Shown piece by piece: positions 5,603 to 32,207 of a DNA stretch of 64,000 bases. Below the pieces are notes generated by a model. The model was not told the DNA's origin. It worked only from the letters and a program-made list of their open reading frames with translations, and searched no databases. The stretch is from Cymodocea nodosa (taxonomy: Eukaryota; Streptophyta; Magnoliopsida; Alismatales; Cymodoceaceae): positions 9,444,001 through 9,508,000 of the forward strand of contig CM072343.1 in NCBI GenBank assembly GCA_036874045.1, given 5' to 3'. The number at the start of each line of letters is the position of its first letter. Position 1 is the stretch's first letter. Position numbers and translations under genes: made by a program.

Positions 5603-5799
5603 ACACTTGATCTACCCAAAAAAGGCTGAAAAAGAATTCCGCAAAATCACAACAACAAACTTCAAAAGTTATGATAGGAATTCTTACTACTCGTTTCACT
5701 AACGTGGAAACGACAGATGACCAAGTGCACGTTGTCAGATTCAAGATCGCAGGCATCGAACAAGAATTCCAACCATGGATGCTTTGTCACAAACACAAA

Positions 5800-6452: not shown

Positions 6453-6758
6453 TGTTATGCGAAGAGAAGTGCGGAAAAGGGAGAAGCTTGGACTCGTGGA
6501 GAAGAAAGAAGAAAACAAAAGAGAAAAACGTGTGAAGCAAATGCAAAAACACCAAGGTTTAACGTGGTTCCCCAATTGGGTACGTCCATGGATAGAGCTC
6601 AACTGAATGATTCTCTAGGTGATCACAAAGGGATACAAGATTCAATCACTCCACTAAGCACATGTTGGGGGTCTATTTATATCATTTGTGTACCCCCAAG
6701 TGGCTAAGGACAAAACTACCCCTATGTGTAACAAAGTAATTCAAGACACATAATAACA
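6453..6758 (-). repeat. 5' LTR of C1
   Basis: It begins, in plus coordinates, TGTTATGCG next to the PBS and ends around AATAACA, giving about 306 bp. A core shared with the C4 LTR (39182-39554) includes ACGTGGTTCCCCAA and GGTACGTCCA. On the minus strand a TATAAATAG-like box lies at 6681-6673, a plausible LTR promoter. The outer edge overlaps or abuts the edge of the G1 LTR at 6757, so the exact last base is uncertain. Confidence 0.75.
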
Positions 6759-8553
6759 TTAGTAAACACTGGATTTATCATTAGGTAATACTAACATTCA
6801 GATAATTCAAACAATAACCATTAAAATCTTTAAGTCTTTTGAACGAACCAATTTTAGTAAACTGTAAAACTAAAACAAACATAAAACAATCACTACATTG
6901 ACAAAGATAACATTAATCACGATACAAAACAAATAATACAACACTCCAATACAAAATATAAACATAGATAAGTTGTTTTTGGTATTTTTGTTTTGATATA
7001 AGCATGGAAATGGGCGAAAGGTGAAATGTAAAGTAATCTCAGTCGATAGTAAATACTTCTATCACTACATGCGACGCGATTACACCACTTACAATTCTAT
7101 CTCCTCTCCCAATAGAATCGAGAGTCCAGAATTGCAAGATGATCTCCTCTTTAGCATACAGGCATCAACCCAAAGCCAAGGTTAGAAGCTTTACGATCTC
7201 CTAAGATATGAGTCAGCACTTAGTGAAAATGGCTTCCCTTCCCGTGACGCGATCACTCCTCATAGTGGTTGTCAAGCACTATGTTTGGCTCAGAATCGAC
7301 CCAACATCAGGAAAGTATCCTCACAGACCTCCGATGGTTGGTGATTATGGTGGTGGTGGAGATGGTTGGTGTGGTACTTTAGAAAATTGCCAATGCTACC
7401 TGCAGAAAGCTCGGTGATCCTCCTCTACACACACTGGCCACACCCATCGATCACTCACACTTTACTTCTTTTTCTTCTTTTCTTTTATATTTCTTTAGTG
7501 GTAACTGCTTTTGCTTGAATGGTCGGTTGGATTTCCTTCATTCATATCAACGACGATGATTTCTTCTCCCTTCAACGAGTGAATTCCTACATGATACGTG
7601 AGATCGTGGTTTTTTTCTTCCAACTATTTTATTCCTACAACCACTATAGTGGCATATTAGAAAATAAATGGTCCATTGAGTTACATATAACTCAACAGAC
7701 TTGCTTCGTTGATTTAACTATAAAACACGTGTATAAATTTAACTATCTGATGCTCAAGTGCATTTCGGATACTTACAAACTTAACTATTCAATGTCAAGA
7801 TGCATTTCAGATAGTTACAGACTTAACTATCTGATGCTCAGATGCCTTTCGGATAGTTACAGAGTTAACTATCCGATGCTTCGATGCATTTTGGATAGTT
7901 ACAGATAACTCACCGATATATAACTTAAGTCAATCTTCCAGATCACGACACGTGTCATCAGCAGTTTTATAATAAAGAAATATTTCAGAGAGTTACAAGT
8001 CTAAATATCCGATGCCCAGATGCATTTCAGATAGTTAGAGATAATTCACCGAAAATCCACTTAAGTCATTCTTCCAGAACATGACATGTGTCATCAGTAG
8101 TTTTATAATAAAAGGAGATTTCGAAGAGTTACACATATAACTGTCCGATGCCCAGTTGCAATTTCGGATACTTAGAGATAACTCACCAAAAGTCCACTTA
8201 AGTCATGCATTATGGTTTCGACACGTGTACTTCAGGAAATAATAAAATATTCTTTTAAAACATAACTGTTTGGAATTTAAACATAACTGTCTGGTACATG
8301 TTCGGTACGTTAAACATAATTGTCCGAAATAACAGAAAATTCAGATACTTAAGAATTTCACAGCCTGTAATTTACCGACAGTTCAGAAATGCACTAAATT
8401 AACATTAATTCCCCGAAATTAAGTAGATTCTTTCATTAAAGCATATAACAGTGCAATTATAACATGATGCCTTAATTCTCATATGATAAGCTAAATATTA
8501 TGCAATTAACCATCATTTAACCATTAATATTATGCACTTTTTCATTCTAAACA
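6757..8553 (-). repeat. 3' LTR of G1
   Basis: Length 1797 bp. On the minus strand it begins TGTTTAGAATG after a GGGGGGAG purine run. Its other end, CATTAGTAAACAC, corresponds to TGTTAGTAAACAC in the 21970-23503 copy, with the terminal TG changed to CA on the plus strand. It is about 260 bp longer than the other LTR mainly because of extra tandem units at 7735-8050. The open frame at 7519-7908 translates those repeats and is not a gene. Confidence 0.88.
7735..8225 (-). repeat. Tandem LTR units with TAACTATCCGA palindromes, ACTTAAGT and ACGTGT
   Basis: Two levels are visible. A unit of about 48 bp (TTAACTATC(T/C)GATGC ... TTTCGGATAGTTACAGA) is repeated about four times at 7735-7905. Around it a unit of about 130 bp is repeated three times (about 7860, 7990, 8125), each holding the inverted repeat, TAACTCACCGA, CACTTAAGTCAT and, in most copies, an ACGTGT core. 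The right LTR has only the last two long units (22968-23195). The layout looks like a multiplied enhancer block. Confidence 0.85.
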
Positions 8554-8561
8554 CTCCCCCC
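8554..8561 (-). promoter_or_regulatory. Terminal polypurine tract of G1
   Basis: Plus-strand CTCCCCCC is GGGGGGAG on the minus strand, directly before the LTR start TGTTTAG. G2 has the same arrangement at 30342-30352. Confidence 0.85.
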
Positions 8562-10355
8562 ATACCTAAATTTTTACTAGTCCCTTAGCAAACTAAGATC
8601 TAATTAATTTGTCTTTCTAAAAGTGCTAGAATTAATTCTTCCTTTTTTCTTCTATTCAGCATAAGAACTTGTATTATTATATAGATATTCTGTATGTTTC
8701 AGTAATCTATTTTAACATTGTTTTCTCCTCTTCAACCTGCAAATATTTAGAATATATGCAAATTACATACAAATTATATCATCATCACATAGGTGTTAAT
8801 TATATTATCGTTTGTTCTTCTTTTCATCATCTATCATCCTGAATTTTCCAATAAGATTTATAGAAGAAATTTCAACAACATACGAATCAAAGTACAATCC
8901 AATTCAATCTTATTAAGACAAGTAGAATAAAGAATTGTATCTCCATAAAACAACTTTAAAAGTCAATTCTAAATTCATATTTCAGCAATTCTAGATAACA
9001 TAAAATATACTCGATTCATAAGATATCTGTATTTCACAAACACTTGTATCTTTTCAAAATAGTATATGTATTTTTGTACTTTAAAAGTTAATTTAACAAG
9101 CTTGAATCATACAAGAGCTTTCTAATGTATCTATGTAACGAGCTTTCAGTCAACAATCCCAGATCTGATTAGGATCTTAGGTTGCCAGATTTCAAAAGTC
9201 CTTTTTCAGGTCAACAATCCTTACATACCTATCTGCTCATGTACAAAAGGCTCGTGATCAAACAAGTCAATAAACTCTCAAAGTTTCTTCTTTTTTTTCT
9301 TTTCTCTTTTTTCTTTTTTTTTTTCAAAACAAAAAACATTAATCACATACTGTATATGTACGTATTTCATTAATACAGATGCAATAAAACACCAATCTCA
9401 TATAGTCCTGCTTCTATCATTTACTGAAAATATGAATCCATAACAATAAGCTCATACTTTTTCTATAGTTTAATAAGATCTACACATAAATCATTCTACA
9501 AGTTTAATCAGTCAAATTAAATGTATCTTTAATCATATGTGTTTCATTTAATCTAGATTTCACATCTCAACTCTTTCAGGACTTTAGATAATTTACTGAT
9601 TTTTCATTAAGCATTCTGATTTTATTTTAAAATCGTGAAATTGTTAAACTCATGAAATTCAGAAAAAACATAAGATATTATATCGAGATTTGCATAAATA
9701 ATAAATTCTATAGCATCTTATATAGCCTTCTAAATATAACATTCAAGTAGTTACAGTTTATAAAAATTTTACAATCTCAATTATCAGATAGTTACAGCAA
9801 GTTCTTAAAAAAATTTCAATTTCCACAAAACTTTTCAATACCATTTTAATTCCTTTAATTAACAAACTTACATGGCTGTTACTTTAATTACCTCCCCCCC
9901 ATACCTACATTTTGCATTGTCCTCAATGTAAAAGATTTGACAATAAATACGGTAATTGTAGCAGGCATGAATACAGTTTCGTTGATTTAGCACCTAACTC
10001 AACGAATGGGTTTAAATCTAAATTCAGGATAAGTAATCAGTTACATACCTTGTTTCGTTTATATTTCCTTCTACATATTTCGATTTTTGATTCTAAAAAA
10101 CTTTTCATTCACAGATAAAAGTAGAATATTTAACAAAATAACATTTAATAGATATTTATAAATCATTGTCTTGTGTGGAACCCAGGCTCCTACGCCTTTG
10201 GTGACTCACAAGCAAGCCAGTTGGTTTCCCAGAACAGATACCAACAAACTGGATTGATATTTTATTTTTTGTTTTTTTATAAAATAAACTAAAACTAAAA
10301 TTTTTCTAAAAGTAAATGCAAAAAACATACAACATTAAAAGCACAAAATCACAGC
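8562..10355 (-). other. G1 3' untranslated region between F-box gene and LTR
   Basis: About 1.8 kb of AT-rich sequence with no supported gene, homologous to 28583-30341 in G2 over its length. It holds a long pyrimidine run at 9285-9326, a second polypurine-like run (9891-9900), and one CGTTGATTTAG / CTAACTCAACGAA inverted-repeat site at about 9978-10006. The short open frames at 9182 and 9912 are unconvincing. Confidence 0.7.
9891..9900 (-). promoter_or_regulatory. Second, internal polypurine tract of G1
   Basis: On the minus strand the context is TGTAGGTATGGGGGGGAGG, almost the same as the terminal tract context TTTAGGTATGGGGGGAG, but 1.33 kb upstream of the LTR. G2 keeps the same duplicate at 29031-29045. 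A GAGGACAAT-type sequence precedes it in both copies, as is usual near Athila/Tat polypurine tracts. Confidence 0.7.
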
Positions 10356-11485
10356 TTAAGAACATGATTGAAAAGTAGAAACAAATGGAATAAATGTGTT
10401 AGTCCAAGCAAACTTTTTAGGCATAATTCTTCTTGCTATTAATTCTATTTTCATGCAATTCGTGTTCCTTCTTAATTTGTAAACTTGTAGTATATTATCA
10501 ATGCTAAATACAAGTATATTACCATTAATGAAATGAAATGCAAAAAGGGATCCTTTTCGGTTCCAGGATAATGTAGCAGTTTCTATTTCTACATCTATTT
10601 CAATATATTCCTCTTCCATTCATTTATGTCTTTCATAATCCATATTTGAAATTTTATCAATTCATCCCACCATCTTATTAGACATAAAGTAGGATCATCA
10701 TATTCATTATACCACATCCCTATTTGAATTTTATCAAATTCTACAGAAAGTGGTTTAGCTATTTTTCTCGGTATAGGCAAAATTTCTATATATTCATCAT
10801 AACCATCTATGCTTACTATGTATAAATCATACCTAAATGCAATTGATATATCTGTGACTAGATATATATATCCATCAAGTATGACATGCATGCTGTTAAT
10901 TAATGATTTCTATCCTAGATATAACATAGTGTTTTCAATCTAAGATCTATTCAGAAAATTATACACACTTAAGCATAAATCTTCAACCCAATTTCCTATA
11001 GGTGTCCAATAATATAATTTTTCAAGAATGGTCAAATTTTTATCAGAAAATATTAAAGCCGACCCACAATTTTCAATTGGTACTTCATATCTATTAGGTC
11101 TTCTTATATTCCATTCTTCTCTTGTGATAGGATTTTTTATCAAAATATCAGGTAATAGAATTGCATACCTTGGTTTGGTCCTGTATATAATTAATCCTTC
11201 ATCCATCCCCATAATATGATCTATTCCTTCTAATGTATTGGGTGGAATTCCAGTAGTTTCTTCCATATTCAAATATTCATGGCTAATTGAACTACGATTA
11301 AATGACTTCCATATGAATCCATCTTTAATCTTAGTCATTTTTGCAGTTTGTAGTCCCTGAAAATATTTTTCTCCAACATAGTCTTTAATTTCCTTTAATA
11401 CACAACACAACCTGCACAGATCTTTAACTGATAAGTTACTTAGTACTTCCCTTAGTGCATCCAATGGTAATTGCATCAATTCCAT
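10356..11485 (-). pseudogene. Captured F-box protein gene, G1 copy
   Basis: ATG at 11485 begins MELMQLPLDALREVLSNL, followed by SVKDLCRLCCVLKEIKDYV: an F-box, the motif that binds SKP1 in SCF ubiquitin ligases. Downstream, NPITREEWN fits the NPxTRE signature of plant F-box-associated domains, and the C-terminus repeats WNRKGSL...FHFINGN...VF blocks. This copy is broken by a TAG after NFLNRS near 10942, by a TAG at 10910-10912 also present in G2, and by a deletion near 10612 after NEWK that shifts frame. It lies 169 bp after gag on the same strand, with a splice-acceptor-like site just upstream. Confidence 0.8.
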
Positions 11486-11494
11486 TTGTTGATT

Positions 11495-11515
11495 CTGTAT
11501 AACACAAACAAAAAT
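11495..11515 (-). promoter_or_regulatory. 3' splice-site-like sequence before the G1 F-box gene
   Basis: On the minus strand a TTTTTGTTTGTGTTATACAG stretch ends in AG ten bases before the F-box ATG. A pyrimidine/T-rich tract plus CAG is the plant acceptor pattern. G2 has the same sequence at the same place (ending at 27431). Splicing itself is inferred. Confidence 0.55.
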
Positions 11516-11529
11516 TAACATAACTACTG

Positions 11530-11600
11530 CACTCCATTGTGGAGTTAGGGCATAACTCAACGGACTAAGTTCGTTGAGTTAAGGACTAACTCTACGATAC
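11530..11600 (-). repeat. Inverted-repeat array between gag and F-box gene (G1)
   Basis: Contains ACTCAACGGACTAAGTTCGTTGAGTTAAGG and nearby variants: the CAACGGA/TCGTTGAGTTA motif family found in every spacer of this element. The G2 counterpart is 27318-27380. Confidence 0.75.
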
Positions 11601-11653
11601 TATTAACTATAAACAAACTTATATATATATATAGTTACTTCAATTATACTGCT

Positions 11654-12994
11654 TCATTCAGCTATCCTCCCAAAAGACGTATCAATTTCATTAACAGTTC
11701 TATTGACAGGGTTAGGTATTGCTTGTATTGGCAATCCTCCAGTGGGTCTAACTTCCATTGATTCCTTCTGTTTAAGTGATATGTTTCTATTTTGATTTTG
11801 AATTGCAGCATTTCCAAATACAAAATCTAGATGATTGTTTAATTGTTGGATTATCTTTTCTAATTTCTCTATTCTAGATCCTTGTTCAAGTAATGCTTCA
11901 TAACTTATATTCTTCTCATTTATATTTTCTCCTCCCTGGAAATTGTTGTTTCTCCAAGATAAATTCAGGTGATTTCTCCAATTAGGATTATAAGAATTTC
12001 CAAAGTTATCTTTCAGTTTTCTAGCATAAATAATATCTAGATTATTAATGTTTGCAATCTTTTCTGCTAGCTTTTGAATTAATGGTAATTCTTCTATTTT
12101 CTTTATTAATTCAATTAATTTCACTTCAAGCATAGTACTTGAATCTATTTCATGCATTCCTATTGGCAATATTCTTCTATGTGCAATAACTTCAGCCGAG
12201 TTTTCCCACTATGCAGTTCTTTTTGCAAAGTTTTCTAAATATGCCCATTCTTCTTCACTACATAGTTTCAGAAATCCATTTTGACAAGTAGATTCTAATA
12301 AAGATTTCGTTGAAACATTTATGCCTACATAAATTATACCTATTAATTGTGCTTTACTCATTACATGATGTGGACATTGAGTCAGTAAATCTTTAAATCT
12401 TTCAAAATATTTCCAAAATGATTCACCCTATTTTTGGCTACACATTAATTTTTCTTTTTTCTTTTTAATCATTTCCTATGTTGGATAATATTTTTCCAGA
12501 AAAACAGAGTATAATTCAGTCTATGCAGAAATTGAATCAGGTGACAGAGTATATAACCATCTCTTAGCTGTCTTTTAAAGCAAAAGCGATATATCTAAGT
12601 TTAATGGCATCTATACTCATGTTCGGCATTTTCATCATTTGACAAACTTCGTTAAATTCTCTAAGGAAATAATAGGCATCCTCTCTTTCTAATCCATGAA
12701 AATATGGCAATTGACTAATATAATTAGATTTCAGTTCAAACCTATCTCCCTCAAAGTTTGTCAATCGAATACATGGAGGTTCATCAACTAATTCAGGATA
12801 TAGAATTTTTCCTAATGGTTTTTCTACTAGAGTAGTCATCTCACGTTCTCTTTTAAAGAAAGGTTAGCTACACCCCAAAGAATTTTGTTAAAGTCCAGTT
12901 CAAAAAATGTTTCAGTACGCCTCTATGTTGAATATTCTTGGGTAGGTGTTCTTACTAATTGTTTAGTGCTAGGAGAACGAGTCCATGTGCTCAT
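11654..12994 (-). pseudogene. Gag capsid ORF of G1, located downstream of pol
   Basis: ATG at 12994 opens MSTWTRSPS. The core FEGDRFELKSNYISQLPHF...HGLEREDAYYFLREFNEVC, then MPNMSIDAIKLRYIAFALKD, is the Athila/Tat retrotransposon gag domain that builds the capsid. The ORF ends at 11654 after a linker rich in Asn and Gln (NNFQGG, RIEKLEKIIQQLNNHL, a short coiled coil) and has no zinc knuckle. Frames 12839-12564 and 12169-11654 are separated by stops and a shift. Its position 3' to INT and the aORF, rather than 5' to protease, is unusual; G2 has the same order. Confidence 0.82.
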
Positions 12995-13908
12995 AAATAA
13001 AATAGCAGATGATTAATTACATACCAATCTGAAGCTTTCCATTCAGTAAATATTTGTTGACGGATGAAGTCGAATCAGCTGCTTCTCCTTCTAGTTCCCC
13101 CAACGCATTCTCCTTTCTTTTAAAAGTACTGGTAACTTATAAATAACATTGCAAGAACGTGTCTTGCAACATGTAGTGTGGTTCCTGTTTTTATGGGTAC
13201 GTGTACCGCTACTAATTTCAAATTTTGGTAACCGCTAAGCCGACGAAGTTTCATTCGTGGTTAAAAGAATAACCATTCTACTTAATCCACGAACTAACCT
13301 CGTTGAGTTACAGATAACTCAACGGAACAATGTTGGTTAATGTTGCTAACTCTACGGACTAACTTCATTGAGTTACAAATAACTCAACGGAGTGACTTTA
13401 TATTATATTACTGACCTCGTGGAGTTAAGTTTAACTCAACGAACTTCGTTGAGTTAACACTTAGCAACCTCTAAGTTTACTCCTCGTAAGTACCTCTATG
13501 TTTTTTTTCTTCTCCTACACTCTACTAACTAAAATAAAGTTTAATACATGTCATTAATGCAGCATTCTAATCAAAATTCGTTTAAATCTGAACCTTATAT
13601 AAATATTTAACTTGTAGTTCATTTCATGTTATGCATAATTTACATTTTACCTTGCAACATGCAGATATTTTCAAACATCTATTATTTAATCTTGTCATTC
13701 AGCAAACTATAAATCTTTTTAAACATTTATGCATAATGTTCCACAAATTATATAACATTCAATATAGTTCATCTATTTCATCATTCTAAACACACATGAA
13801 AAATATATCTGAAAAACATATATTCATTCATATGAATCAATTACAGTACAATCAAATCAGATATTTTTCATACAAATATATACAAGTGCAAGTAGACAAA
13901 CTATACAA
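12995..13908 (-). other. Spacer between aORF and gag in G1 with inverted-repeat array
   Basis: About 0.9 kb with no gene. The array at 13288-13456 has five or more CGTTGAGTTA / TAACTCAACG sites. At 13301-13324 the two halves form a perfect 10 bp inverted repeat with the 4-base loop CAGA. The part nearest gag holds a possible 5' untranslated region (13000-13260). The G2 counterpart 24926-25911 has the same order, so it is a conserved part of the element. Confidence 0.72.
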
Positions 13909-16109
13909 TTAGCCTCTATTCCTAAGTTCATCTACTTCCTTCTGGAGTTTTTCTAATTGCTGCTCTAATTGGTTTATCCTTTCTACAGCTCCAATAATGC
14001 CTCCAGAAGGTACAAATACTTCAACTGCAGCAACATAATTTCTATATTCTTTCACTGCAATGGTTCTTGATCTTATCCTTTTGGATGTCCATTTCGTGAA
14101 ATCAATACAGTCTACCATCAATATAGGTATCAAATCTCCATAAAATAATTTCTTCTTTGCAGACTTCATTTTGGCTAGGAAGATGTGACACCAATTAACT
14201 TGAATTCTATTCACAACTACATAAGTGGCCCACTTGACAAATTGACTCAGTTCAATGTCATGGCCTTGTCATTGGTAGACATTTTTAATCAAAATGTTAG
14301 CTATCATGTGTGCTTTACCATTTAAATGCTTCAGTCTATTTAATAATGGCACACCAGGATTGATAGCCAAACTATCCTTGATTTTCTGCTCTGTCCATTC
14401 AACGATAGTTGTGCTTTCCAAAATTTCTTTTCCTTCATTTTTCAATCCAAAAATGTTGTAGAGAAGCTTTGGTGTTATCTGTACATCAGCTTCCTCCACG
14501 TTGGAAATTAATTTTCCTTCTTCTTCTCTTAAATTAGCATAGAACCAGGGCACTAGATTTTCATATATTGCATGCCATTTATGTTGAGAAATAAATTGTA
14601 GTAGACCCTGAAACTCAAATAATTCCGTAATTTCTTGCATTCCATCCCAATTTACTGGTCTACTGTATATGATATCATAACCCCTAATCTCTTGATATTT
14701 ATTATAACCTTCCTAACTCCAAAAGTGTACTTCATTCAGAACTATTGCTTCAATCGAGTCAAGAATGTGACTTTGTTGTTCCAAAGGGGTTTGTTCTTGA
14801 TCTTCCTCTTCCATAGGCTGAACTTGAACTTGCTGAAAATGTTCTGCAAATTCCTAAACATTTGCTTCTGCTTTTGTTTGTGGTGGTGAGCCACTAGAAC
14901 TCTCCACTCTGTCTTGAATTCTTTCTATAAATTGCCGAAGAGTTTCTTACTCTTCAGTGGAATCTGCAAAGTCATTTCTTTCCATAAGGCTTTGTTCAAC
15001 TTCTTGTTCATTATCTATTCTTTCTTCTTCCTCTTGACTACCAAAATGCATTGTCACCGTTCTTTCTGATTCTTTGGCAGATTGGGATGGAGTCATGGGC
15101 AAATCAGCTTCTACCCTAATTTCTATTTCTTCTTCTTGTACAGGCTGCAGACTAGTTTCAACCTGTTTTTCTTCTTCTCTTTGCTCTTACTACTGCTGCT
15201 CCTGCTCCTCCTCAAAATCAGATAGCAGGTTCACCAAAATTGGCTCTACAAGCCTTGTTATTGTTGGTACTTCAGATTTAATCTACTTTTGACATTCAGG
15301 CACTATCTCTTTTCCTTTCCTTCATCTAATTAATTGTGCCTGGTCTTCCTCTTCTACTTCTGAGATTAAATTCATAAGCAAAGGCTCTTCACGCCTTTGA
15401 GCCACAGGTATTGGCTTTTCTTGTTTAATTTTTTCAATATTTGCTGGTCTCGAAGGACCAACTTCATCTTCTCCTCTTGCAGCAAATCTGATAGTGGTTC
15501 TTTGATGTTGTTCAATTTTAATTTTGTATTGGACTTTCAATTTTTCTGCAGCCCTCTTCTTGCAAAGTGTATCAAATACCAGGTGTGTTTTAGCTATTGC
15601 CACATCTTCTGGTTCTCCTTGGTTTTTCCCAACTTAAACCAGTCCTTGGAATTCTCTTAATTCCTCTTCAATTGAAGGCCCCAACATTGCTGCTCGTGCC
15701 AACGGCCTGAATGGTGGAACTGAACAAGTCTTTCAGCTGTCGGCTCCTCTTGTTCTTCTTCTACTTGTTGCTGCTACCTTATTGCACCCCTTGCACGACC
15801 AGCAATGCACTTTTTGAAGCATAATCTGGCCTTGCACTAGATTAGCTCTAGGGCTACTTCGTTGTTTGACCTGATTTTTCTCTCTTTACTTACAGCAATT
15901 TTTGTTGCTACTCTGATTCTTGTTTCCACTATCTGGGGTATTTGTATACCCAAATCTACTAAAAATCTTTTCAAGTTTAAAAGTTCGGATTCTACCTTTT
16001 GTAGCTCTTTTTCTCTTGTTGTATTCCTGATTTTCTGTCGCATGTGCCATTCCTCTGACTCTTTCAAAAATTCTGATGTGTCAACAGCATCTTCCCAGAA
16101 CTCGGCCAT
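13909..16109 (-). pseudogene. Accessory ORF (aORF) of G1, plant-transposon-protein-like
   Basis: ATG at 16109 begins MAEFWEDAVDTSEFLKESE; the end is a coiled coil, INQLEQQLEKLQKEVDELR. About 730 codons. The middle is acidic and Glu/Gln-rich. The conserved core lies at about 14650-13980: FQGLLQFIS, YENLVPWFYANL, LNRLKHLNGKAHMIANIL, WATYVVVNRIQVNW, KLFYGDLIPILM, SKRIRSR. This resembles the domain annotated as putative plant transposon protein; the biochemical role is unknown. The frame is broken by TAG codons and shifts (open pieces 16142-15837, 15603-15322, 14640-14269, 14214-13909). The start was chosen because G3 has ATG at the matching place (58061). A related ORF is in the copia element C5. 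Confidence 0.75.
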
Positions 16110-16743
16110 CATCTTCCTCATCGTGGAATTACATAATAGCACGGAATCGCTCTGATCTTTCTGTTCTAAGTTCTAACTGATCTACCGGATAATGCCCCCA
16201 AAACCCTAAGTTTTAGTCTAAATAAGCCCTAAGTTTAGGCGGGTAATCGGGTCATTTCCCAAACAAAACTCTCGCTCTCTCATCCATGGAATCACGGATA
16301 ACTCCATGGACTAAGTCCATAGACTTAACTACAGTACTCCGTTGAGTTATAGTTAACACAACGGAATAAGCTCGTTGACTAACTTAAGACTCAACGGAGT
16401 AAGTTCGTTGAGTTAAGCGTAACTCAATGGACCTCTCGTACAAATAGATATATATATAAAAAAATACTTAAGATAATAGTTCTTTTTTTCAATTTTTACC
16501 GGTTCAACCGATACTATGTTTCGGTCAGACCGACTTTTTTTTTCGGTTGAACCGATACTATGTTTCGGTAAAACCAAAAGTTTTTTTTTTTTTTACTAAA
16601 AATTAATATAGATTTTTTATGTTCCGGTCATACCGATGGATCTAGTCGGTTGAACCGTAACAATTTTTTATATTTTATAATTTTTTAAAATTACAACGAT
16701 TTTTTTTTATTTTTATGAAAATAAAATAAAAACTGATTTCTTA
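16110..16743 (-). promoter_or_regulatory. Promoter-like spacer between INT and aORF (G1)
   Basis: Read toward the aORF on the minus strand: an array of CGGTTGAACCGATACTATG repeats (16497-16668), then an array of CCGTTGAGTTA / TAACTCAACGGA inverted repeats (16284-16432), a GA-rich run (16265-16283), and repeated CTTAGGG telo-box-like sequences at 16203-16240, about 100 bp before the ATG. G3 keeps the same order (58062-58788). Telo-boxes and GA runs are common near plant promoters; that this drives an aORF transcript is inference. Confidence 0.6.
16497..16668. repeat. CGGTTNAACCG palindrome array
   Basis: Four to five copies of a unit containing TTCGGTTGAACCGATACTA and TGTTTCGGT(C/A)A(G/A)ACCGA. 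The core CGGTT-GAACCG is a near-perfect palindrome. Related, more decayed copies lie in G3 at 58480-58740. This family is distinct from the CGTTGAGTTA arrays next to it. Confidence 0.8.
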
Positions 16744-19700
16744 CTAAGTAAAGCTCAAGTAGTCCTCTACTCTGACTTCTTCTATAATACCAAAGGAGCT
16801 TTTTGGTATTTTCAGAATAGGTCTAAGTCTTTGTCCATTTACTTTAAAGATATTTTGATTTTTAAGATTTTCAATCTCAAAGGATAAATATTTCGAACTA
16901 TGTAAGGTCCTGCCTATCTAAATCTTAATTTTCCTGAATGGTTATAGAGTCTAGCCATGTAAAGATATACTTCTTGTCCTATTTCAAAGCATTTTGGAAT
17001 AATTTTCCTATCATGCCAGAATTTCATTTTCTCTTTTTCTCTTACAGTCTTCGAATAAGCTTCATTTCTAAATTCTTCTAATTCAATTAATTGCATTTTC
17101 CTATTTTCAGCAACTTGATTTAAATTAGTGTTCAGAGTTTTTAATGCCCAATAAGCTTTATGTTCTATTTCAACTGGTAAATGACAACTTTTTCCATATA
17201 CTAGCCTAAAAGGTGACATACCTAAGCTTGCCTTATAAGTAGTTCTATAAGCCCAAAGTGCATCTATCAATCTATTAGCCCAATCTGTTCTAGTAGGATT
17301 TACTACTTTTTCTAAGATTAACTTAATTTGTTTGTTTGCACTTTCTACTTGTCCACTTGTTTGCTGATGATATGATGTTGCAATTTTGTGGTTTACACCA
17401 TATTTCTTCATTAAGGCTTCAAAACTTCTATTACAGAAATGAGTTTCTCTATCACCGATAATAGCTTTAGGTATTCCAAATCTGGCAAATATATTGGTTC
17501 TTATAAATTGTATTACCACTTTGTTGTCATTAGTTTTTGTAGGAATAGCTTCTATCCATTTAGATACATAATCCACCCCCAACAATATGTAATTAAATTG
17601 ATTAGACATAGGAAATGGACCCATAAAATCTATTCCCCACACATCAAAGATTTCAACCTCAACAATATGATTAAGAGGCATCATATTCCTCTTTGATATT
17701 CTTCCTATTTGTTGACATCTTAAACAACTTAAGCAATATTTATGAGCATCTTTGAATAGTGTTGGCCAATAAAATCCACATTGTAGAATTTTTGCAGCAG
17801 TTTTCCCTGAGCCAAAATGCCCTCCATAAGGTTGGTCATGATAAAAAGACAATATGCTATGATATTCAGTTTCTAGAACACAACTCCTTAAAACCAGATC
17901 AGGACATTTCTTAAATAAGTATGGGTCTTCCCAATAGTAATATTTTACTCTTGAGAAAAATAATTTCTTATCCTGTCTATTCCAATACTTAGGAGTTTAA
18001 CCAGTAACTAAGTAATTAACTATGTCTGCATACCAAGGTATTGTGTTGATGGTCATTAATTGTTCATTAGGAAAATTATCCTTAATTTCAATATTTGATT
18101 TTTCTATTTGTAATCTTGATAAATGATCTGCTACTACATTCTAACAACCTTTTTTATCTTTAATTTCTAGATCAAATTCTAGCAATAATAATATCCATCG
18201 GATCAATCTAGGTTTAGTTTCTTTTTTCTTTATTAGATGTTTTAGAGCTGAATGATCCGTGTATACTATTACTTTAGCTCCAATCAAATATGATCTAAAC
18301 TTTTCTAAAGCAAACACAATAGCTAGTAATTCTTTTTCAATAGTTGTGTAATTAACTTGAGCATCATTTAAGGTTTTGCTTGCATAATGAATCACTCGAG
18401 GAGATTTTTCTATCTTCTGTCCCAACACTGCTCCTACAACAAAATCAGATGCATCACACATTAATTCAAATGGATGGCTCCAATCAGGTGCTTGAATTAT
18501 AGGAGTTGAAATTAAGCTAGTTTTAAGTCTGAAAAATGCTTCCTTGCAATTTTTATCAAAGTTGAATAGGACATCTTTTAATAGATTAGTTAAAGGTCTA
18601 GCAATTTTGCTAAAGTCTTTAATAAATCTTCTATAAAAACCAGCATGTCCTAGAAATGATCTAATATCTTTTACTGATTTAGGTTCTGGTAGATTAGAAA
18701 TTACTTCTATTTTAGCTTTATCTACTTTCAACCCTTTCTTAGAAACAACATGCCCTAAGACTATTCCTTGTTTAACCATGAAGTGACATTTTTCCCAATT
18801 TAGAACCAGATTTTTTTCCACACAGCGTTTTAATATTTGGTCTAAATTTTTTAAACAAACTTCATATGAGTTGCCATATACAGTAAAATCATCCATAAAT
18901 ATTTCTAAAAAATCTTCAGTCACTCCAGTAAATATGCCCTATATACACCTTTGAAAGGTAGCTGGTGCATTGCATAATCCGAATGGCATTCTCTTAAAAG
19001 CATAAGTTCCATTAGGAAAGGTGAAAGTTGTTTTCTCTTGATCCTTTAATGCTACTGGAATTTGATTATAACCTGAATACCCGTCTAGGAAACAAAAATA
19101 TTCTTGCCCTACTAATCTTTCCAGCATTTGATCTATAAAAGGTAAGGGAAAATGATCTTTCCTAGTCACAGCATTCAGCTTTCTATAGTCTATACATACT
19201 CTCCAGCCTGATTGAATTCTAGTAGGTATTAAGTCTTGACTTTCATTCCTAATAACTGTTAATCCTGATTTCTTGGGAACTACATGGATTGGGCTAACCC
19301 ACGAGCTATCAGAAATCGGATAAATTATATCATTATCTAACCATTTCACTATTTCCTTCTTAACTACTTCTTTAAGGATTGGATTTAATCTCCTCTCATG
19401 AATTCTAATAGGTTTAGCATTCTCTTCTAAATATATGTGGTGACAGCATAAAGTTGAACTTAACCCTTTTATATCAATCATAGTCCATCCTATTGCTTCT
19501 TTATAACTTTTTACTACATCTTTTAATTTAGCTATTTGATCCTCTTTTAAATCTGAAGCAATAATGATTAGATAGGTTTGTTTCTCTTCCAGAAATATAT
19601 AGGTTAATTCAAGAGGTAAAGGTTTTAATTCTAAATGTTGCCCATCAGAAACTAGAGCTCCTAATTGAACATCATCACTTTCTAAATTAATTTCTTCCAG

Positions 19701-21401
19701 ATCCCCTTCTATATTTATGCTTTCACTTTCGTCTAAAGTTTCAGAATTGATTTGCCTATTTAATTTTTCTTGAATCACATCCTCTACATATCTCCTTCAT
19801 CCTCTAAAAAGTCTACGGTATGTAAGGACATTTCTAACTCCTAAAACCTTTCTAGTTTGAAAATATTTAATTGAGTATCCTCATTATCATATGCTAACTT
19901 CATTACTCTCATTTTACAATTTATAATAGCCCCTGATGTTGCTAAAAATGGTCTTCCCAAAATTAAAGATGTATCACTATTTTTATGCTTAATTTGTTAG
20001 GACTCCAATATTACAATATCAATAGGATATATAAAGTTTTTGATTTTAATTAAGACATCCTCTATTTTTACTCTAGGGTATCTTATACTTCTATCAGCTA
20101 ATTGAATAACCGTACTAGTAGGAGTTAAGCCTTCTAATCTTAAGGATGCAAATATATCACTTGGCATAACATTTATACTTGCACCTAAGTCTATTAAGGT
20201 TCTTTCTAGAATGGTATTTCCTATGGTGCATGATATAACAGGGATTCCAAGATCAGATAACTTTTTAGGAATTTGTGGCAAAAATAGGAAACTACTTTGC
20301 TCAGCTAAAAAGACCTTTCTAAGAACCTTTCGCTCTCTTCTCTTAATACACCAATCCTTCAAAAATTTAGCATAATGTGGCATTTTCTGCAATAGATCTA
20401 ACAAAGGAATGTTAACTTGTACTTTTTCAAAAATTTCTCTGATTTTTTCTTATTTTTCAGGTATTGTTTGTTGTAATCTTTCAGGATAAGGTGCTAAAGA
20501 TTGTGATTTAAAAGATTCTTTTTCTTTTAGTTGATTTGTTTGATCATTTTTAGCCTCATTAGCAGACTCAGATTGTTCTTCATTGATTTCTAGATTTTCA
20601 GCTATTACATTTTCATTATCATTTTGATTTTTACTCTTATCCACCTTCATATTATTTTCATTTTGAGTTCTTGATGGTATATCAGTTCCAAATCTTAATG
20701 TTACACATACATCTTCCAGATTTTCATTACTCATGATATTTTTGTATATCAATTTCGTGATTATGATCTTCAATTGCTTTTAATTTTAAAGTGCATTCTT
20801 TAAATTCTCTTGCATTAGTATTTTCTTTTGGCTGTGTATTTTGCAAATTATGTAGATTTAAAACATTATAATTTCCATTGTCTTGTTGCATAACTTGTAT
20901 TTTCATTGTATATTCGTCCAATGCTTTTAGTTTTCTTTCTAGATCATCTAATCTCATTGCATTCAATTTTTGATCAATTTTCATTATGGTTTTTTCAGTT
21001 TCGTAAATTATATCCAATTTAGGTTCTAAATATGCTTCCTTATAGTTTAATTGGTTAATTTCTTGTTGCCGACACATAAAGTATTCTAGTTTGTCTAAGT
21101 TTTGCTCTATACTACGCTCTAGTCTATCATACCTATCCCAAACTTCCGTGTCTCTCAATATATTACACATTCTATACTAACCATCAATTGGGTAAACTAT
21201 AGGATTCTCATACTCGACTCTATTATATTGAGGATAATTCATTTGTTGTTCAAGGGATCTAGCCATCTGCAAACGTCTCTGTTTCAAATAGTCAGAAATG
21301 TCGTGTCCTTTAGAATTGTAGAATTCACATATGCTAACTACAGGTTTCAGAAATCTTTGAGCATAAGCATATGCCATATTCTCAATTACAAAAGAAAACA
21401 C
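16744..21401 (-). pseudogene. Athila-like pol of G1 (PR, RT, RNase H, INT)
   Basis: Starts at 21401 with a short module whose CEFYNSKGHDISDYLKQ resembles a degenerate zinc knuckle; the capsid part of gag is absent here. A Lys/Glu/Asn-rich linker follows (about 21170-20450). Protease: LGASINVMPSDIF and IQLADRSIRYPR at about 20225-20080. RT: CIDYRKLNAVTRKDHFPLPF, FLDGYSGYNQI, MPFGLCNAPATF, then FMDDFTVYG at about 18890. RNase [32 protein letters not shown] finger (HDQPYGGHF...CLSCLRCQQ), catalytic [15 protein letters not shown] and [12 protein letters not shown]; it ends near YLSFT at 16744. In-frame stops are few and mostly TAG. Confidence 0.9.
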
Positions 21402-21969
21402 ACAACACTCTGGCTATTAAAACAAAATAGCTCTAACAATTGCTTATATGAATTCCCCGGCAACAGCGCTAGAAAACTTGTTTGGATCTCCAGCACGGCA
21501 CCAGAAAAACTTGATTAGTTACCTAGCAACGTGCTAGAAAAGCTTGGATTTGTTAACTTCTATTTTTACTTAGTTAATTTATCTTTATGCCTATTCCTTT
21601 TTAGAAGTAAACAAACGACCTTTCACACAAATTAGATATTAATTCCAATTTGTATTTTAACTGCAAGTGCATAGTGTTTATTGTATTAGTGTGCAAGTAC
21701 AAGTCGATCCCATAGGGAATTGCTTAAGAATTGCAAACTGTTCCATTTTTAACAATCAAATTTATATATTAAATAAGCTCTCCATTGAATTACAGTTAAC
21801 TCAACAGACTAAGTTCGTTGAGTAATGACTAACTTAACGGACTAACCTCGTGGACTTAAGTTAACTCCACGAGCCTGCCTTTCCTATTTAACACTACTAT
21901 TTACAAAGGAATTCGGCCAACCATTGGGCAATTCCTCAGATTGAAAATAACATCAATTAAGCTCTTTAA
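21402..21969 (-). other. 5' leader of G1
   Basis: Between the 5' LTR and pol. Near its gene-proximal end on the minus strand it has TTTTCTGGTGCCGTGCTGG and GCGCTGTTGCCGGGGAATTC, the sequence type that typically precedes gag in Athila/Tat elements. A CAAGTCGATCCCATAG... and GTGCAAGTACAAG stretch is also typical. An inverted-repeat array lies at 21781-21880. The same leader is found after the G2 LTR (31726-32207). I see no clear PBS. Confidence 0.75.
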
Positions 21970-23503
21970 TGTTAGTAAACACTAGATTTATCATTAGGCA
22001 ATACTAACATTCAGATAATTCAAACAATAACCATTAAAATCTTTAAGTCTTTTGAACGAACCAATTTTAGTAAACTGTAAAACTAAAACAAACATAAAAC
22101 AATCACAACACTAACAAAGATAACATTAATCACGATACAAAACAAACAATACAACACTCAAATACAAAATATAAATATAGATAAGTTGTTTTTGGTATTT
22201 TTGTTTTGATATAAGCATGTAAATGGGCAAAAGGTGAAATGTAAAGTAATCTCAGTCGACAATAAATACTTCCTTCACTACATGTGACGCGATTACACCA
22301 CTGAAAATTAAACCACTTACGATTCTGTCTCCTCTCCCTATAGAATCGCAAGTCTAGAATTGTAAGATGATCTCCTCTTCAGCATACAAGCATCAACTCG
22401 AAGCCAAGGCTAGAAGCTTTACAATCTCCTGAGATATAAGTCTGCGCTTGGTGAAAATGGCTTCCCTTCCTGCAACGCGATCACTCCTCACAGTGGTTGT
22501 CAGGCACTGTGTTTGGCTCAGAATCTACCCGACATCAGGAAAGTATCCTTACAGACCTCCGATGGTTGGTGATTATGGTGGTGTGGAGATGGTTGGTGTG
22601 GTACTTTAGAGAATTGCTAACGCTGCCTGCAGAAATCTTGGTGATCCTCCTCTGCACACACTAGCCACACCCATCGATCACACACACTTTACTTCTTTTT
22701 CTTCTTTTCTTTTATATTTCTTCAGTGGTAACTACTTCTGCTTGAATGGTCGGTTGGATTTCCTTCATTCATATTAACGACGATGATTTCTTCTCCCTTC
22801 GACGAGTGAATTCCTATGTGATACGTGCGATCGTGGTTTTTTTCTTCCAACTGTTTTATTCCTGCAACCGCTACAATGGCATATTAGAAAATAAATAGTC
22901 CGTGGAGTTATAGATAACTCAACGGACTTGCTTCATTGATTTAACTATAAAACACGTGTATAAATTTAACTATCCGATACCCAGATGCATTTCAGATAGT
23001 TAGAGATAACTCACCGAAAATCCACTTAAGTCATTCTTCTAGAACTGACACGTGTCATTAGTAGTTTTATAATAAAAGGAGATTTCAGAGAGTTACACAT
23101 ATAACTATCCGATGCCCAACTACAATTTCGGATATTTAGAGATAACTCACGAAAGTCCACTTAAGTCATGCATTATGGTTTCGACACGTGTACTTCAAGA
23201 AATAATAAAATATTCTTTTAAAACATAATTGTTCGACAATTTAAACATAACTGTTTGGTACATGTTCGGTACGTTAAACATAACTGTTTGAAATAACAAA
23301 AAATTTGGATACTTAAGAATTTCACAGCCTACAATTTACCGACAGTTCAGAAATACACTAAATTAACATTAATTCCCCAAAATTAAGTAAATTCTTTCAT
23401 TAAAGTATATAACATAATGGTTTAATTCTCATATGATAAGCTAAATATTATGCCATTAACCATCATTTAACCGTTAATATTATGCACTTTTTCATTCTAA
23501 ACA
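21970..23503 (-). repeat. 5' LTR of G1
   Basis: 1534 bp, direct repeat of 6757-8553. Plus-strand edges are TGTTAGTAAACAC and TTCATTCTAAACA. It abuts, at 23504, the middle of the G2 aORF in the opposite orientation. Motif units lie at 22968-23195. Confidence 0.88.
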
Positions 23504-24925
23504 CTAGGCACAATTAATCAGAAGAAGGAAAGGAAAAGAGACAATGCCTGAATATCAAGAGGAGATTAAATCTGAAGTACCAATATCAGTAGGGCCTATA
23601 GAGCCAATTTTTGTAAACCTGCTATCTGATTCTGAGGAGGAGCAGGAGTAGTAGCAAAAGCAAAGAGAAGAAGAAAAATAGGCTGAAACTAGTCTGCAGC
23701 CTGTACAAGAAGAAGAAACAGAAATTAGGGTTGAAGTTGATTTGCCCGTAACTCCATCCCAATCTGCCATAGAATTAGAAAGAACAATGACAATGCAGAT
23801 TGGTAGTCAGGAGGAAGAAGAAGAAGAAAAAAATGAACAAGAAGCTGAATAAGTATATATGGAAAGAGATGACTTTGCAGATTCTACTAAAGAGCAAAGA
23901 ACTCTTCAGCAAATTTTGGATAGTATTCAAGACAGAGTGGAGAGTTTTGCCGACTCACCACTATAGACAAAAGTAGAAGCAAAAATGCCAGAATCTGTGG
24001 AGCATTTTCAACAAGTACAAGTTCAGAATATGAAAGAGGATGTTCAAGAACAAACCCCTCTAGAGCAACAAATGCATATTCTTGATCGTTATGAAGTAAC
24101 AGTTTTAAATAAAGTACACTTTTGGAGTCAAGAAGCTTATGATAAATACCAAGAGATTAGGGGTTATGATATCATATACAGTAGACCAGTAAATTGGGAT
24201 GGGATGCAAGAAATTAAGGATTTATTTGAGTTCCAAGGTCTACTGCAATTTATTTCTCAAGAAAGAGGACATGCAGTATATGAGAATCTAGTGCCCTGTT
24301 TTTATGCAAACTTAAGAGAAGGAGAAAGAAGATTAATTTCCAACATGGAGCAAGTTGATGTACAGATAACACTAGAGCTTCTTCACAACATTTTAGGATT
24401 GAAGAATGAAGGACTAGAAATTCTGAAAAGCACAACTACAGTCGAGTGGACAAAGCAAGCAATAAAGGATTGTTTAGATCCTAGTGTGCCGTTATTAAAT
24501 AGACTAAAGCAACTAAATGGTACAGCACACATGATAGCAAACATTCTAATTAAGAATGTCTACCAATGACAAGGCCATGATATAGAACTGAGTCAATTTG
24601 TCAAGAGGGCCACATATGCAGTAGTGAACAAAATTCAGATAAACTGGTCTATAGTTTTCATCTCCAAGCTGAAAGTAGTAAAGAAGAATTATTTTATGAA
24701 AATCTGATTCCACTGCTGATGATGCACTGTATTGATTTCACGAAATAGGCATCTAAAAAGATCAGATCAAGAACTATTTCAGTGAAAGAATACAGAAATT
24801 ATGTAGTTGTAGAGATTGCTGAACCTTCTAGAGGAATTACAAGAGCTGTAGAAAGGATTAACCACTTAGAGCAACAATTAGAAAAACTCTAAAAGGAAGT
24901 ATATGAACTTAGGAGAAAAGATTAA
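23504..24925 (+). pseudogene. Accessory ORF (aORF) of G2, 5'-truncated
   Basis: Equivalent to about codon 255 onward of the G1 aORF. The acidic middle (23504-23980) has several TAG codons. The core at 23985-24569 is open for 194 codons and contains FQGLLQFIS, YENLVPCFYANL and LNRLKQLNGTAHMIANIL. Beyond 24569 a stop, a shift and further stops break the ATYAVVNKIQ and coiled-coil end. The final stop is TAA at 24923. The 5' part was lost at the junction with the G1 LTR. Confidence 0.78.
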
Positions 24926-25911: not shown

Positions 25912-27239
25912 ATGAGCACATGGACTAAACGATTAGTAAGAACACCTACCTAGGAGTATTCAACACAAAGGCGTACTGAAACATTTTCTGAATTGGACTT
26001 TAACGAAATCCTTAGGGGTGTAGCTAACCTTTCTTTAAAAGAGAACGAAGATATGGCTGTTCTAGTAGAAAAGCCATTAGGGGAAATTCTATATCTTGAA
26101 TTAGTTGATGAACCTTCATGTATTCGATTGCCAAACTTTGAGGGAGATAGGTTTGAACTGAAATCTAATTATATTAGTCAATTGCCACATTTTCATGGAT
26201 TAGAAAGAGAGGATGCCTATTATTTCCTTAGAGAATTTAAGGAAGTTTGTCGAATGATGAAAATGCCGAACATGAGTATAGATGCTATTAAACTTAGATA
26301 TATCTATTTTGCTTTAAAAGACACAGCTAAGAGATGGTTATATACTCTATTGCCTGATTCAATTTCTACATGGATTGAATTTTGCTTTGTTTTTGTAGAA
26401 AAATATTATCCAACACATCAAACGATTAAAAAGAAAAAAGAAATATTAATGTGTAGCCAAAACAGGGAGAATCATTTTGAAAATATTTTGAAAGATTTAA
26501 AGATTTACTGACTCAATGTCCACATCATGTAATGAGTAAAGCACAATTAATAGGTATAATTTATGAAGGCATAGATGTTTCAACGAAATCTTTATTAGAA
26601 TCTACTTGTTAGAATGGATTTTTAAAACTGTGTAGCGAAGAAGCATGGGCATATTTAGAAAACTTTACAAAAAGAACTGCATAGTGGGAAAACTCAGCTG
26701 AAGCCATTACAGATAAAAGAATATTGCCAAGGGGAATGCATGAAATAGATTCAAGCACTATGCTTGAAGTGAAATTAACTGAATTAACAAAGAAAATAGA
26801 AGAGTTATCATTAAATCAAAAACTAGCAGAAAAGAATGCAAACATTAATGATCTAGATATTATTTATGCTAGAAACCAAAAAGATAACTTTGGGAATTCT
26901 TATAACCCTAATTGGAGAAATCACCCGAATTTATCTTGGAGAAACAACAATTTCCAAGGAGGAGAAAATATAAATGACAAGAATATAAGTTATGAAGCAT
27001 TAATTGAACAATGATCTAGAATAGAGAAATTAGAAAAGATAATCCAACAATTAAACAATCACTTGGATCTTGTATTCGAAAATGCTACAATTCAAAATCA
27101 AAATAGAAACATATCACTTAGACAGAAGGAATCAATGGAAGTTAGACCTACTAGAGGATTGCCAATACAAGCAATACCTAACCCTGTGAATAGAACTGTT
27201 AATGAAATTGATACCTCCTCTAGGTGGGTAGCTGAATGA
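25912..27239 (+). pseudogene. Gag capsid ORF of G2
   Basis: ATG at 25912 (MSTWTKRLVRTPT, then a TAG). In the same frame: LDFNEILRGVANLSL, FEGDRFELKSNYISQLPHFH, LREFKEVCRMMKMPN, FALKDTAKRWLYTLLPDSIS and WIEFCFVFVEKYYPT, the classic Athila/Tat gag capsid block. A stop after KDLKIY (26510) and one frame change separate the second half (26724-27239: NPNWRNHPNLSWRNNNFQGG, a TGA at 27012, RIEKLEKIIQQLNNH). The ORF ends at TGA 27237. No zinc knuckle. About 442 codons. It sits 203 bp before the F-box ATG. Confidence 0.85.
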
Positions 27240-27299
27240 AACAGTATAACTAAAGTAACTATGTATAATAAAAATAAAAATAAAATGTAAGTTTACTTA

Positions 27300-27380: not shown

Positions 27381-27410
27381 AGTAGTTATGTTAATTTTTG
27401 TCTCTGTTAA

Positions 27411-27431: not shown

Positions 27432-27442
27432 AATCACAACAG

Positions 27443-28582
27443 ATGGAACTGATGAAATTACCGCTAGACGCACTAAGGGAAGTACTGAGTAACTTGTCCA
27501 CTAAAGATTTGTGTAGATTGTGTTGTGTATCAAAGGATATTAAAGACTGTATTAGAGAAAAATATTTTCATGGACTACAAGCTGCAAAAATGACTAAGAT
27601 TAGAGATGGATTTTTATGGAAGTCATTTAATCGTAGTTCAATTAGCTATGAATATCTGAATATGGAAGAAACTGCTAGAATTCCACCCAATACATTAGAA
27701 GGAATATATCATATTATGGGGATGGATGAAGGATTAATTATATACAGAACCAAACCAAGGTATGCAATTCTGTTACCTGATATTTTGATTAGAAATCCTC
27801 TCACAAGAGAAGAATGGAATATAGGAAGGCCTAATAGATATGAAGTACCAACTGAAAATTGTGGGTCGGCTTTAATATTTTCTGATAAAAATTCGACCAT
27901 TCCTGAAAAATTATATTATTGGAGACCTATTGGAAATTGGGATGAAGATTTATGCCTAAGTGTGTATAATTTTCTGAATAGATCTTTGACTGAAAACACT
28001 ATGATATATCTAGGATAGAAATCATTAATTAACAACATACATGTCATACTTGATGGATATATATATCTAGTCTTAGATATATCAGTTGCATTTAGATATG
28101 ATTTATACATAGTAAGCATAGATAGTTATGATAATGACTATATAGAAATTTTGCCTATACCAAGAGAAATAGCTAAACCACCATCTACAAAATATGATAA
28201 AATTCAAATAGGGATGTGGTATAATGAATATGATGATCCTACTTTATCTTTAATAAGATGGTGGGATGAATTGATGAAATTTCAAATATGGATTATGAAA
28301 GACATAAATGAATGGAAGTGGGAAGAAGAATATATTGAAATAGATGTAGAAATAATAATAGCTACATTATCTTGGAACCGAAAAGGATCCCTTTCTGCAT
28401 TTCATTTCATTAATGGTAATACACTTGTGTTTAGTATTGATAACATACTACAAGTTTACAAATTAAGAAGGAACACGAACTGCATTAAAACAGAATTAAT
28501 AGAAAGAAGAATTATGCCTAAAAAGTTTGCTTGGACTGACACATTTATTCCATTTGTTACTACTTTTCAATCATGTTCTTAA
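27443..28582 (+). pseudogene. Captured F-box protein gene, G2 copy (one TAG from intact)
   Basis: From ATG 27443 to TAA 28580 there is one 379-codon frame with a single internal TAG at 28016-28018 (codon 192). Residues 1-45 form the F-box (LPLDALREVLSNLSTKDLC, RLCCVSKDIKDCI), the SKP1-binding part of an SCF ubiquitin ligase. NPLTREEWN at about residue 120 fits an F-box-associated domain. The C-terminal half (MWYNEYDDPT, WNRKGSLSAFHFINGN, FAWTDTFIPF) could be a beta-propeller-like substrate-binding region; I do not recognise a named subfamily. About 380 residues is the usual size for plant F-box proteins. The same TAG occurs in G1, so it predates their split or is tolerated. Confidence 0.82.
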
Positions 28583-31725: not shown

Positions 31726-32207
31726 TTAAAGAGCTTAATTGATGTTATTTACAATCTGTGGAATCGCCCAATGGTTGGCCGAATTCCTCTGTAAATAGCA
31801 GTATTAAATTGGAACGATATGCTCGTGGAGTTAACTTAAATCCACGAGATTAGTCCATTGAGTTAGTCATAACTCCATGAACTTAGTCCATTGTGTTAAC
31901 TATAACTCAATGGAGTGATTACTAAACACATTAAGTATAATAAAAAATAGAATAGTACACAATTCTCAATCAATTCTCTATGTGATCAACCTGTACTTGT
32001 ACACAAATACAATATACACTATGCACTTGTAGTTAAAATACAAATTGGAATTAATATCTAATTTTTGTGAAAGGTTGTTTGTTTACTTTTAAAAAGAAAT
32101 TATCGATATAAGCACAAGGATAAATTAACCTAGTAGAAACAGAAGTTAACAAATGTAAGTTTTCTAGTGATGCTACCTGTGAACTAAACAAGTTCTCTAG
32201 TGCTGCC
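31726..32207 (+). other. 5' leader of an Athila-like element following the G2 LTR
   Basis: Matches the reverse of 21480-21969 (G1 leader): TTAAAGAGCTTAATTGATG just after the LTR, an inverted-repeat array (31830-31920), ACTATGCACTTG, and TCTAGTGCTGCC before the break. It shows that the LTR at 30353-31725 served, or was recombined into, a 5' position. Cut by C2 at about 32207. Confidence 0.72.

Follow-up and report, generated by a model that had tools for sequence, protein, structure and literature searches.

A 64-kb stretch of Cymodocea nodosa DNA (contig CM072343.1, positions 9,444,001 to 9,508,000; hereafter the window) contains the long terminal repeat (LTR) retrotransposon G1 together with the related elements G2 and G3. 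On the minus strand (23503-6758), G1 consists of an LTR, a site resembling a primer-binding site (PBS), pol with protease (PR), reverse transcriptase (RT), RNase H (RH) and integrase (INT), an open reading frame (ORF) termed aORF, a gag capsid ORF, an F-box gene, a polypurine tract (PPT) and an LTR (Table 1). An earlier note made from the sequence of the window had proposed the order pol, aORF, gag, F-box and PPT between LTRs, and this was borne out by Pfam, which identified PR, RT, RH, INT and the F-box of G1, and by self-comparison of the window, in which the LTR pieces of G1 were 90–91% alike. Gypsy-type RT, RNase H and integrase in the order PR-RT-RH-INT were found by Pfam in pieces of G1 and of loci L030, L042, L043 and L044 described below, the protease matches in these pieces lying below the cut-off. 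The pol copy of G1 has several stops and frame changes, and its gag pieces gave no Pfam match; the clearest domain matches in the window were in G2 (gag, PF03732, E 1.3e-7; F-box, PF00646, E 9.3e-11). As the note had stated, self-comparison showed that G2 (plus strand, 23504-32191) repeats the series aORF-gag-F-box-LTR, with G1-G2 identity across it, and that G3 repeats RT-INT-aORF. The "leader" that the note had placed outside the LTR had to be dropped: the LTR runs to 21479 and not to 21969, and the "leader" of G1 and G2 is U5. The two G1 LTRs are alike only up to 21972 because the 3' LTR stops at 6758, and the sequence beyond was read as a copia element. The G1 5' LTR and the G2 LTR remain alike past 21972, close to the PBS-like site, and target duplications place the LTR end at or near ...AAACA in other copies.

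The C. nodosa source genome (374.6 Mb, 28 contigs) was searched with gag and PR probes, giving 3785 and 3107 first-look candidates, of which 40 each were scored, and with the F-box protein, giving 6862 candidates, of which 110 were scored. Of 39 gag places outside the window, the 20 best were retrieved, each with 10 kb of sequence. aORF was directly upstream of gag in 19 of these (not L012), INT was upstream in 16 (not L012, L013, L023 and L026), and the F-box, partly broken, was downstream in 18 (not L010 and L027); the order, with similar spacing, was common to the 20 copies, which lie on 13 contigs. When the 5' side was fetched for eight of the 20, six (L030, L031, L032, L033, L035 and L036) read LTR, in part partial, followed by pol start, PR and RT, and two (L029 and L034) were taken up by other elements on the opposite strand. 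The earlier note had named gag upstream of protease in most copies as an outcome speaking against its reading. This was not observed: none of the 20 gag stretches contained PR or a pol start, downstream of gag or elsewhere, and none of the six readable 5' stretches held gag (tblastn best E 0.22), nor did the two 5' stretches from other families described below. Two outside gag proteins, by contrast, matched 20 of 20 gag stretches. Among the 40 PR and 40 gag places, three pairs lay within 9 kb, and in each of these, G1 included, gag follows PR in the same orientation at a distance of 8.0–8.3 kb. Two further pairs are separated by 18 kb; in the first, gag is upstream of PR in the same orientation, and in the second the two are on opposite strands. 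With 34 of the 110 F-box places included, an F-box was located 9.5 kb downstream of one PR in the same orientation, and a second PR had one 17.8 kb off on the opposite strand.

Element ends were sought in four copies (L016, L018, L020 and L022), all of which have LTR pairs. Perfect 5-bp target duplications surround the whole unit in the three copies in which they were readable (CCAAC in L018, ATCAA in L020 and ACTAT in L022), demonstrating that the G unit integrated as one element in these copies. A gag/F-box block with separate LTRs or target duplications at its borders, the other outcome that the note had set against its reading, was thus not found. L018 has one changed base at an LTR end, and the 3' LTR of L016 passes into other sequence. 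The PBS-like site and PPT are also present, completing the features of an LTR retrotransposon. LTR pair identity was 0.936, 0.944 and 0.926 in L018, L020 and L022, respectively, and 0.883 in L016, where the LTR limits are uncertain; the G copies read are old. Nested insertions in the window, and the two 5' stretches occupied by other elements, could raise the suspicion that an assembly error, a nested insertion or a tandem array was misread as a single element. The same order and spacing in 20 copies on 13 contigs make this hardly credible, and the duplications refute it for the three units that they surround.

To look beyond the G family, P0121, one of two database relatives of the G2 gag, was used in a genome search that gave 150 scored gag places, and the two with open gag, L042 and L043, were fetched. 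In L042, an RH-INT frame open for 596 amino acids from the first base of the stretch is followed after about 310 bp by a stop-free gag frame of 454 amino acids; in L043, RH-INT of 574 amino acids is followed, about 260 bp to the first ATG, by a gag frame of 469 amino acids. Both gag frames matched PF03732 (E 8.2e-20 and 2.3e-19, respectively). There is no aORF between INT and gag in either, and blastn gave no F-box match in the 1.5–1.6 kb behind gag. In the corresponding 5' stretches, L044 and L045, pol opens with a zinc knuckle and no gag was detected (best E 0.23); a PBS-like site is present in L044 (score 32) and not in L045. In L044, pol stays open for 895 amino acids until the stretch ends, and L042, which starts at the next base, is open from that base onward. 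INT is 60–63% identical between G1, L042 and L043. In a tree of 121 INT sequences (3 of 124 were not placed; no named Athila reference was included), the INT of G1 grouped among plant gypsy integrases, and G1, L016, L042 and L043 formed a group with the metagenome protein P0007 with a support of 0.95, L042 and L043 alone having 0.25. Copies of two divergent families share the order without aORF, and it therefore seems to predate the G family. These results support the earlier reading of a pol-first element with a displaced gag, put it on firmer ground than the note had, and amend it in that the order extends to these two families. The pol-gag order looks like a real gene arrangement and not a scrambled copy, and pol before gag looks like a trait of the lineage to which aORF and the F-box are additions.

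The distribution of aORF also bears on whether the order arose by fusion, a gag-less element joining a gag/F-box element by template switching, after which the chimera spread. Published work describes template switching in plant LTR elements (PMC1950507, accessible part), and aORF does stand out. Between G1 and G2, its synonymous divergence (dS) is 0.44 and 0.62, far above the 0.10–0.20 of gag and F-box, and mean identity across copies is 87% for aORF and 91% for the aORF-gag spacer, compared with 94–95% for INT, gag and F-box. Shared transversions number 107 in aORF, compared with 28 for the aORF-gag spacer, 20 for the 3' region, 6 for the F-box and 2 each for INT and gag. A third-codon excess in shared variants was detected for aORF (p 0.00086) and not for gag, F-box or INT, in a test with little power because the sequence numbers are small (INT 16, aORF 17, gag 19, F-box 15). 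However, INT and gag, on either side of aORF, are equally uniform across copies (0.953 each, the value for gag resulting partly from how copies were picked), so that the odd piece is aORF itself, and its excess variation suggests that aORF types have been exchanged within the family. Moreover, gag lies close behind INT in the two families without aORF, and no clear LTR-like sequence remains between the genes when palindromes are masked (see below). Since two families without aORF have the same order, we set fusion aside as its origin and regard it as quite improbable.

The earlier note had described a gag without a zinc knuckle and a knuckle remnant at the start of pol. The first point held, CX2CX4HX4C being absent from the G-family gag in all 19 copies in any frame; as to the second, a knuckle does stand at the start of pol, and in most copies it is not a remnant. 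Of six copies, four (L030-L033) have it intact, 16 residues from the start of the pol ORF, and L035 and G1 do not; in L030 the knuckle, PR and RT lie in one frame, with stops. Six-frame translation of loci L009-L045, amounting to 541,852 codons, contains the motif nine times: seven of these are at pol starts (L030-L034, L044 and L045), one is in the L043 gag and one in L026 outside the G modules. In the L042 gag, Y replaces the last C. A knuckle left behind by a departing gag is only one possible history, because the pol knuckle occurs in all three families and the L043 gag keeps one. The L034 stretch contains a reverse-oriented element whose pol is 68–73% alike to that of L044, with a nearly identical pol-start knuckle, and which is probably a second member of the L044 family.

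Our data suggest, with a probability of roughly 0.86, that these elements belong to a Ty3/gypsy lineage with pol followed by gag, composed of an LTR, a PBS, a knuckle-opened pol, a separate gag ORF and the 3' end, with aORF and the F-box present in the high-copy G family and the downstream ORFs presumably read from RNAs of their own. The lineage is probably related to Athila. In the mechanism that we propose, the full-length RNA would yield pol, opened by its own zinc knuckle, and gag would be made from a separate downstream RNA; the downstream ORFs could be served by their own spliced or internally started RNAs, in which case the gag/pol ratio would be set at the RNA level. In the G family, an intron running from a donor-like sequence before gag to an acceptor-like sequence before the F-box would remove gag and allow the F-box to be expressed, and the F-box protein might influence the turnover of host proteins or of capsid. 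In pattern searches allowing at most four substitutions, the donor-like GT 5' of gag was kept in 19 of 20 G copies and the acceptor-like AG 5' of the F-box in 15 of 19, and by eye acceptor-like sequences precede gag in L043 and L042. That gag has its own RNA is what we infer from this arrangement. On balance, we favour a history in which a whole lineage, still partly intact, left the gag-pol layout, with pol translated from the full-length RNA and gag from a separate one, and in which one member retained the knuckle on pol only and added an F-box that would need gag to be spliced out.

Several observations weigh against this reading. A fully open gag was found in 0 of 20 G copies, and from G1 and G2 selection on gag appears weak (10 of 500 neutral runs were as low) and that on the F-box unclear (6 of 500); the shifted-frame control for the F-box was equally good (4 of 500), and evidence of F-box selection from this pair was discarded. 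By the same simulation, aORF (G1/G2) and INT and RT-RH (G1/G3) were constrained, with 0 of 500 runs as low. The target duplication of G1 is unreadable, and the L045 pol has frame breaks. One copy has lost the donor-like GT, and four have lost the acceptor-like AG. LTR pairs were read in the G family only, the L042 and L043 families being represented by the genes of one copy each, and the INT set consists of best matches to the INT of G1, which biases the tree towards G1. G copies were chosen by best match to the G1 gag, and the other families because their gag frames were open, as was the case at 2 of 150 scored places, so that the counts of gene order apply to these selected samples and not to all elements of the genome.

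The lack of a fully open gag and the weak or unclear selection would also fit a G family that is not autonomous, in which gag and the F-box are passengers and capsid is supplied in trans by another element, as would the in-frame stops common to G1 and G2, one in gag and, by eye, another in the F-box. We nevertheless consider this unlikely. A frameshift and stop common to G1 and G2 could not be upheld as a family feature of gag: their frame breaks differ, 9 of 22 copies lack the common stop, and 10 of the 22 have no frame-changing indel relative to the others. In addition, the F-box frame is free of stops at 21 of the 110 scored genome places, including the query's own, and gag is open in L042 and L043. 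Plant elements are known to capture host genes, often in one or few copies (PMC7264820, accessible part), and the F-box ORF might be such a chance passenger; its presence in 18 of 20 fetched copies makes this very improbable, as do the nearly full-length matches at the 110 scored of 6862 candidates, most of whose surroundings are unread. The F-box protein scored above the cut-off for PF00646 (E 1.2e-10) and below that for TIGR01640 (E 1e-7). In L020, an F-box match was accompanied by a match to the F-box-associated domain that lay below the cut-off, and the associated domain is also found in G2. No relative of the F-box protein was found in the protein database at E 0.001 among 1747 candidates, in a word-based search that can miss relatives, and PDB gave nothing useful for gag or F-box. 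Viral contigs contained no relative of INT or gag, and plasmids gave three remote integrase matches.

In the part of a Ty3/gypsy survey available to us, 8453 elements have the order GAG-PROT-RT-RH-INT, elements with an unexpected domain order were always removed, and PF03078 is found in 16% of Athila elements (PMC6317226). As described there, Athila, a lineage of the OTA superclade, resembles G in the PR-RT-RH-INT order, an ORF after INT and a 5-bp target duplication (PMC6317226). In Athila, GAG stands in front of PROT, whereas here gag is behind INT, a zinc knuckle opens pol and an F-box follows gag. The tRNA-Asp-like PBS is presumably typical of Athila. The aORF pieces scanned gave no Pfam match to the Athila ORF-1 domain PF03078, and their similarity to PF20167 was below the cut-off (best E 3.9e-7, in L023). 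Tat, Ogre and Retand have an additional RNase H, unlike the RH and INT pieces of G1, L042 and L043; neither this domain nor a chromodomain was matched by Pfam in the pieces scanned, which included these three loci and others, and in this the elements are like Athila. According to the available text of a review, plant elements with additional ORFs can carry a sense ORF between pol and the 3' LTR, with transduction of host genes as in maize Bs1, while gag and pol remain in their usual places; here, gag itself is the downstream ORF (PMC7264820). Grande, RIRE2 and Retand carry an extra gene between pol and the 3' LTR, that of Grande with its own promoter, but these ORFs are antisense and not gag (PMC7264820). 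The open-access literature (titles and starts of abstracts, with long lists partly covered, and excluding subscription papers and element databases) yielded no plant element with gag behind pol and no Athila-like F-box carrier.

Retroviruses express env and other downstream genes from spliced subgenomic RNA and gag from unspliced RNA. Spliced RNA for downstream genes is the model proposed here, except that pol, and not gag, would be read from the unspliced RNA. As a rule, retroelements are taken to have gag ahead of pol, an arrangement by which they produce more capsid than enzyme; if this lineage, with open gag in two families and open pol in one, breaks the rule, the ratio can be set in another way. 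Surveys that drop unexpected domain orders may have removed a pol-first lineage, and a high-copy element carrying an F-box would offer a testable link between retrotransposons and host protein turnover.

Table 1 Features of G1, G2 and G3 and palindromic repeats in the 64-kb window.
Feature	Position	Strand	Remarks
G1 5' LTR	21479..23503	-	2,025 bp, TGTTT...AAACA; ends fixed via target duplications of other copies
G1 PBS-like sequence	21454..21471	-	aligned with other copies
G1 pol	16746..21377	-	N-terminal knuckle region, PR, RT, RH, INT; ends by eye
G1 aORF	13909..16122	-	weak PF20167 similarity; start by eye
G1 aORF-gag spacer	12871..13908	-	palindromic repeats; donor-like GGTATGT near 13024
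G1 gag capsid ORF	11655..12840	-	no zinc knuckle; stops and frame changes; homology to G2 gag
G1 F-box gene	10356..11485	-	acceptor-like ATACAG just 5' of ATG
G1 PPT	8554..8564	-	read from sequence
G1 3' LTR	6758..8553	-	stops short at 6758
G2 aORF	23504..24925	+	5' part missing where G1 lies
G2 gag	26053..27239	+	PF03732
G2 F-box gene	27443..28582	+	one in-frame stop
G2 LTR	30353..32191	+	includes U5; right end by eye
G3 RT-RH-INT-aORF	56203..63999	-	interrupted between 61267 and 63448
Palindromic repeat	173-986, 7688-7716, 11553-11581, 13283-13456, 16323-16415, 21797-22943		
Palindromic repeat (continued)	25386-25563, 27328-27356, 28914-28940, 30775-31898, 58280-58403		

The PBS-like match of G1 at 21453-21469, whose motif we take to be a tRNA-Asp-type PBS, was the best in the window with a score of 30; the second-best place reached 20, and six one-strand shuffles gave no more than 18. 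With the tRNA-Asp motif, G1 and L044 (32) gave good matches and L045 at best 14. A candidate PBS remnant upstream of gag near 13100 scored 18, equal to shuffled sequence, and was rejected. By eye, the 3' ends of the LTRs (window 21480-21560; L018, L020 and L030-L035) show tandemly arranged units that resemble the PBS and differ in number from copy to copy, a pattern suggestive of copying of primer-site sequence into the LTR.

A palindromic repeat of about 29 bp, in short arrays with a period of about 32 bp, occurs at nearly every gene boundary of the G elements and in their LTRs, and is absent from INT, RT, RH, aORF and gag. The window has 31 matches at a score of at least 26, whereas none of ten shuffles gave more than one. 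LTRs and spacers of G1-G3 account for 26 of the 31, and the other five are in unassigned sequence at 173-986. At a score of at least 28, matches in the 20 fetched copies were distributed as follows: the aORF-gag spacer had 63, spread over all 20 copies, the INT-aORF spacer 47 in 18 copies, and the interval between gag and the F-box 16 in as many copies. LTR parts contributed 7, the 3' region 5 and other places 3; INT, RT, RH, aORF and gag had none, and 3 fell within the F-box span of one copy. Inserts split the F-box in L012 and L023. Best scores in L042-L045 were 19–22, below the cut-off. The earlier note had advised looking for LTR remnants between INT and gag. The LTR-like sequence between the genes proved to be this repeat, and once it was masked no clear LTR-like sequence was left: 3 of 26 comparisons exceeded the top score from 60 shuffles, with margins of 1, 2 and 5 points; two of the three matches were A- or AT-rich, and the third was a weak one between aORF-gag and LTR. 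LTR remnants between genes were rejected on these grounds.

The interruption of G3 contains an LTR fragment (62924-63447), and the end of G3 resumes at 43582-43960, past an inserted copia element. The remaining stretches of the window that were scanned are mostly copia elements, with nested insertions present. A copia element with LTRs about 95% identical (43961-45688 and 54473-56200) lies inside the G3 aORF, and three related copia elements at 1869-5806, 32238-36132 and 40123-43547, two of them inverted with 89% identity, flank the G elements.

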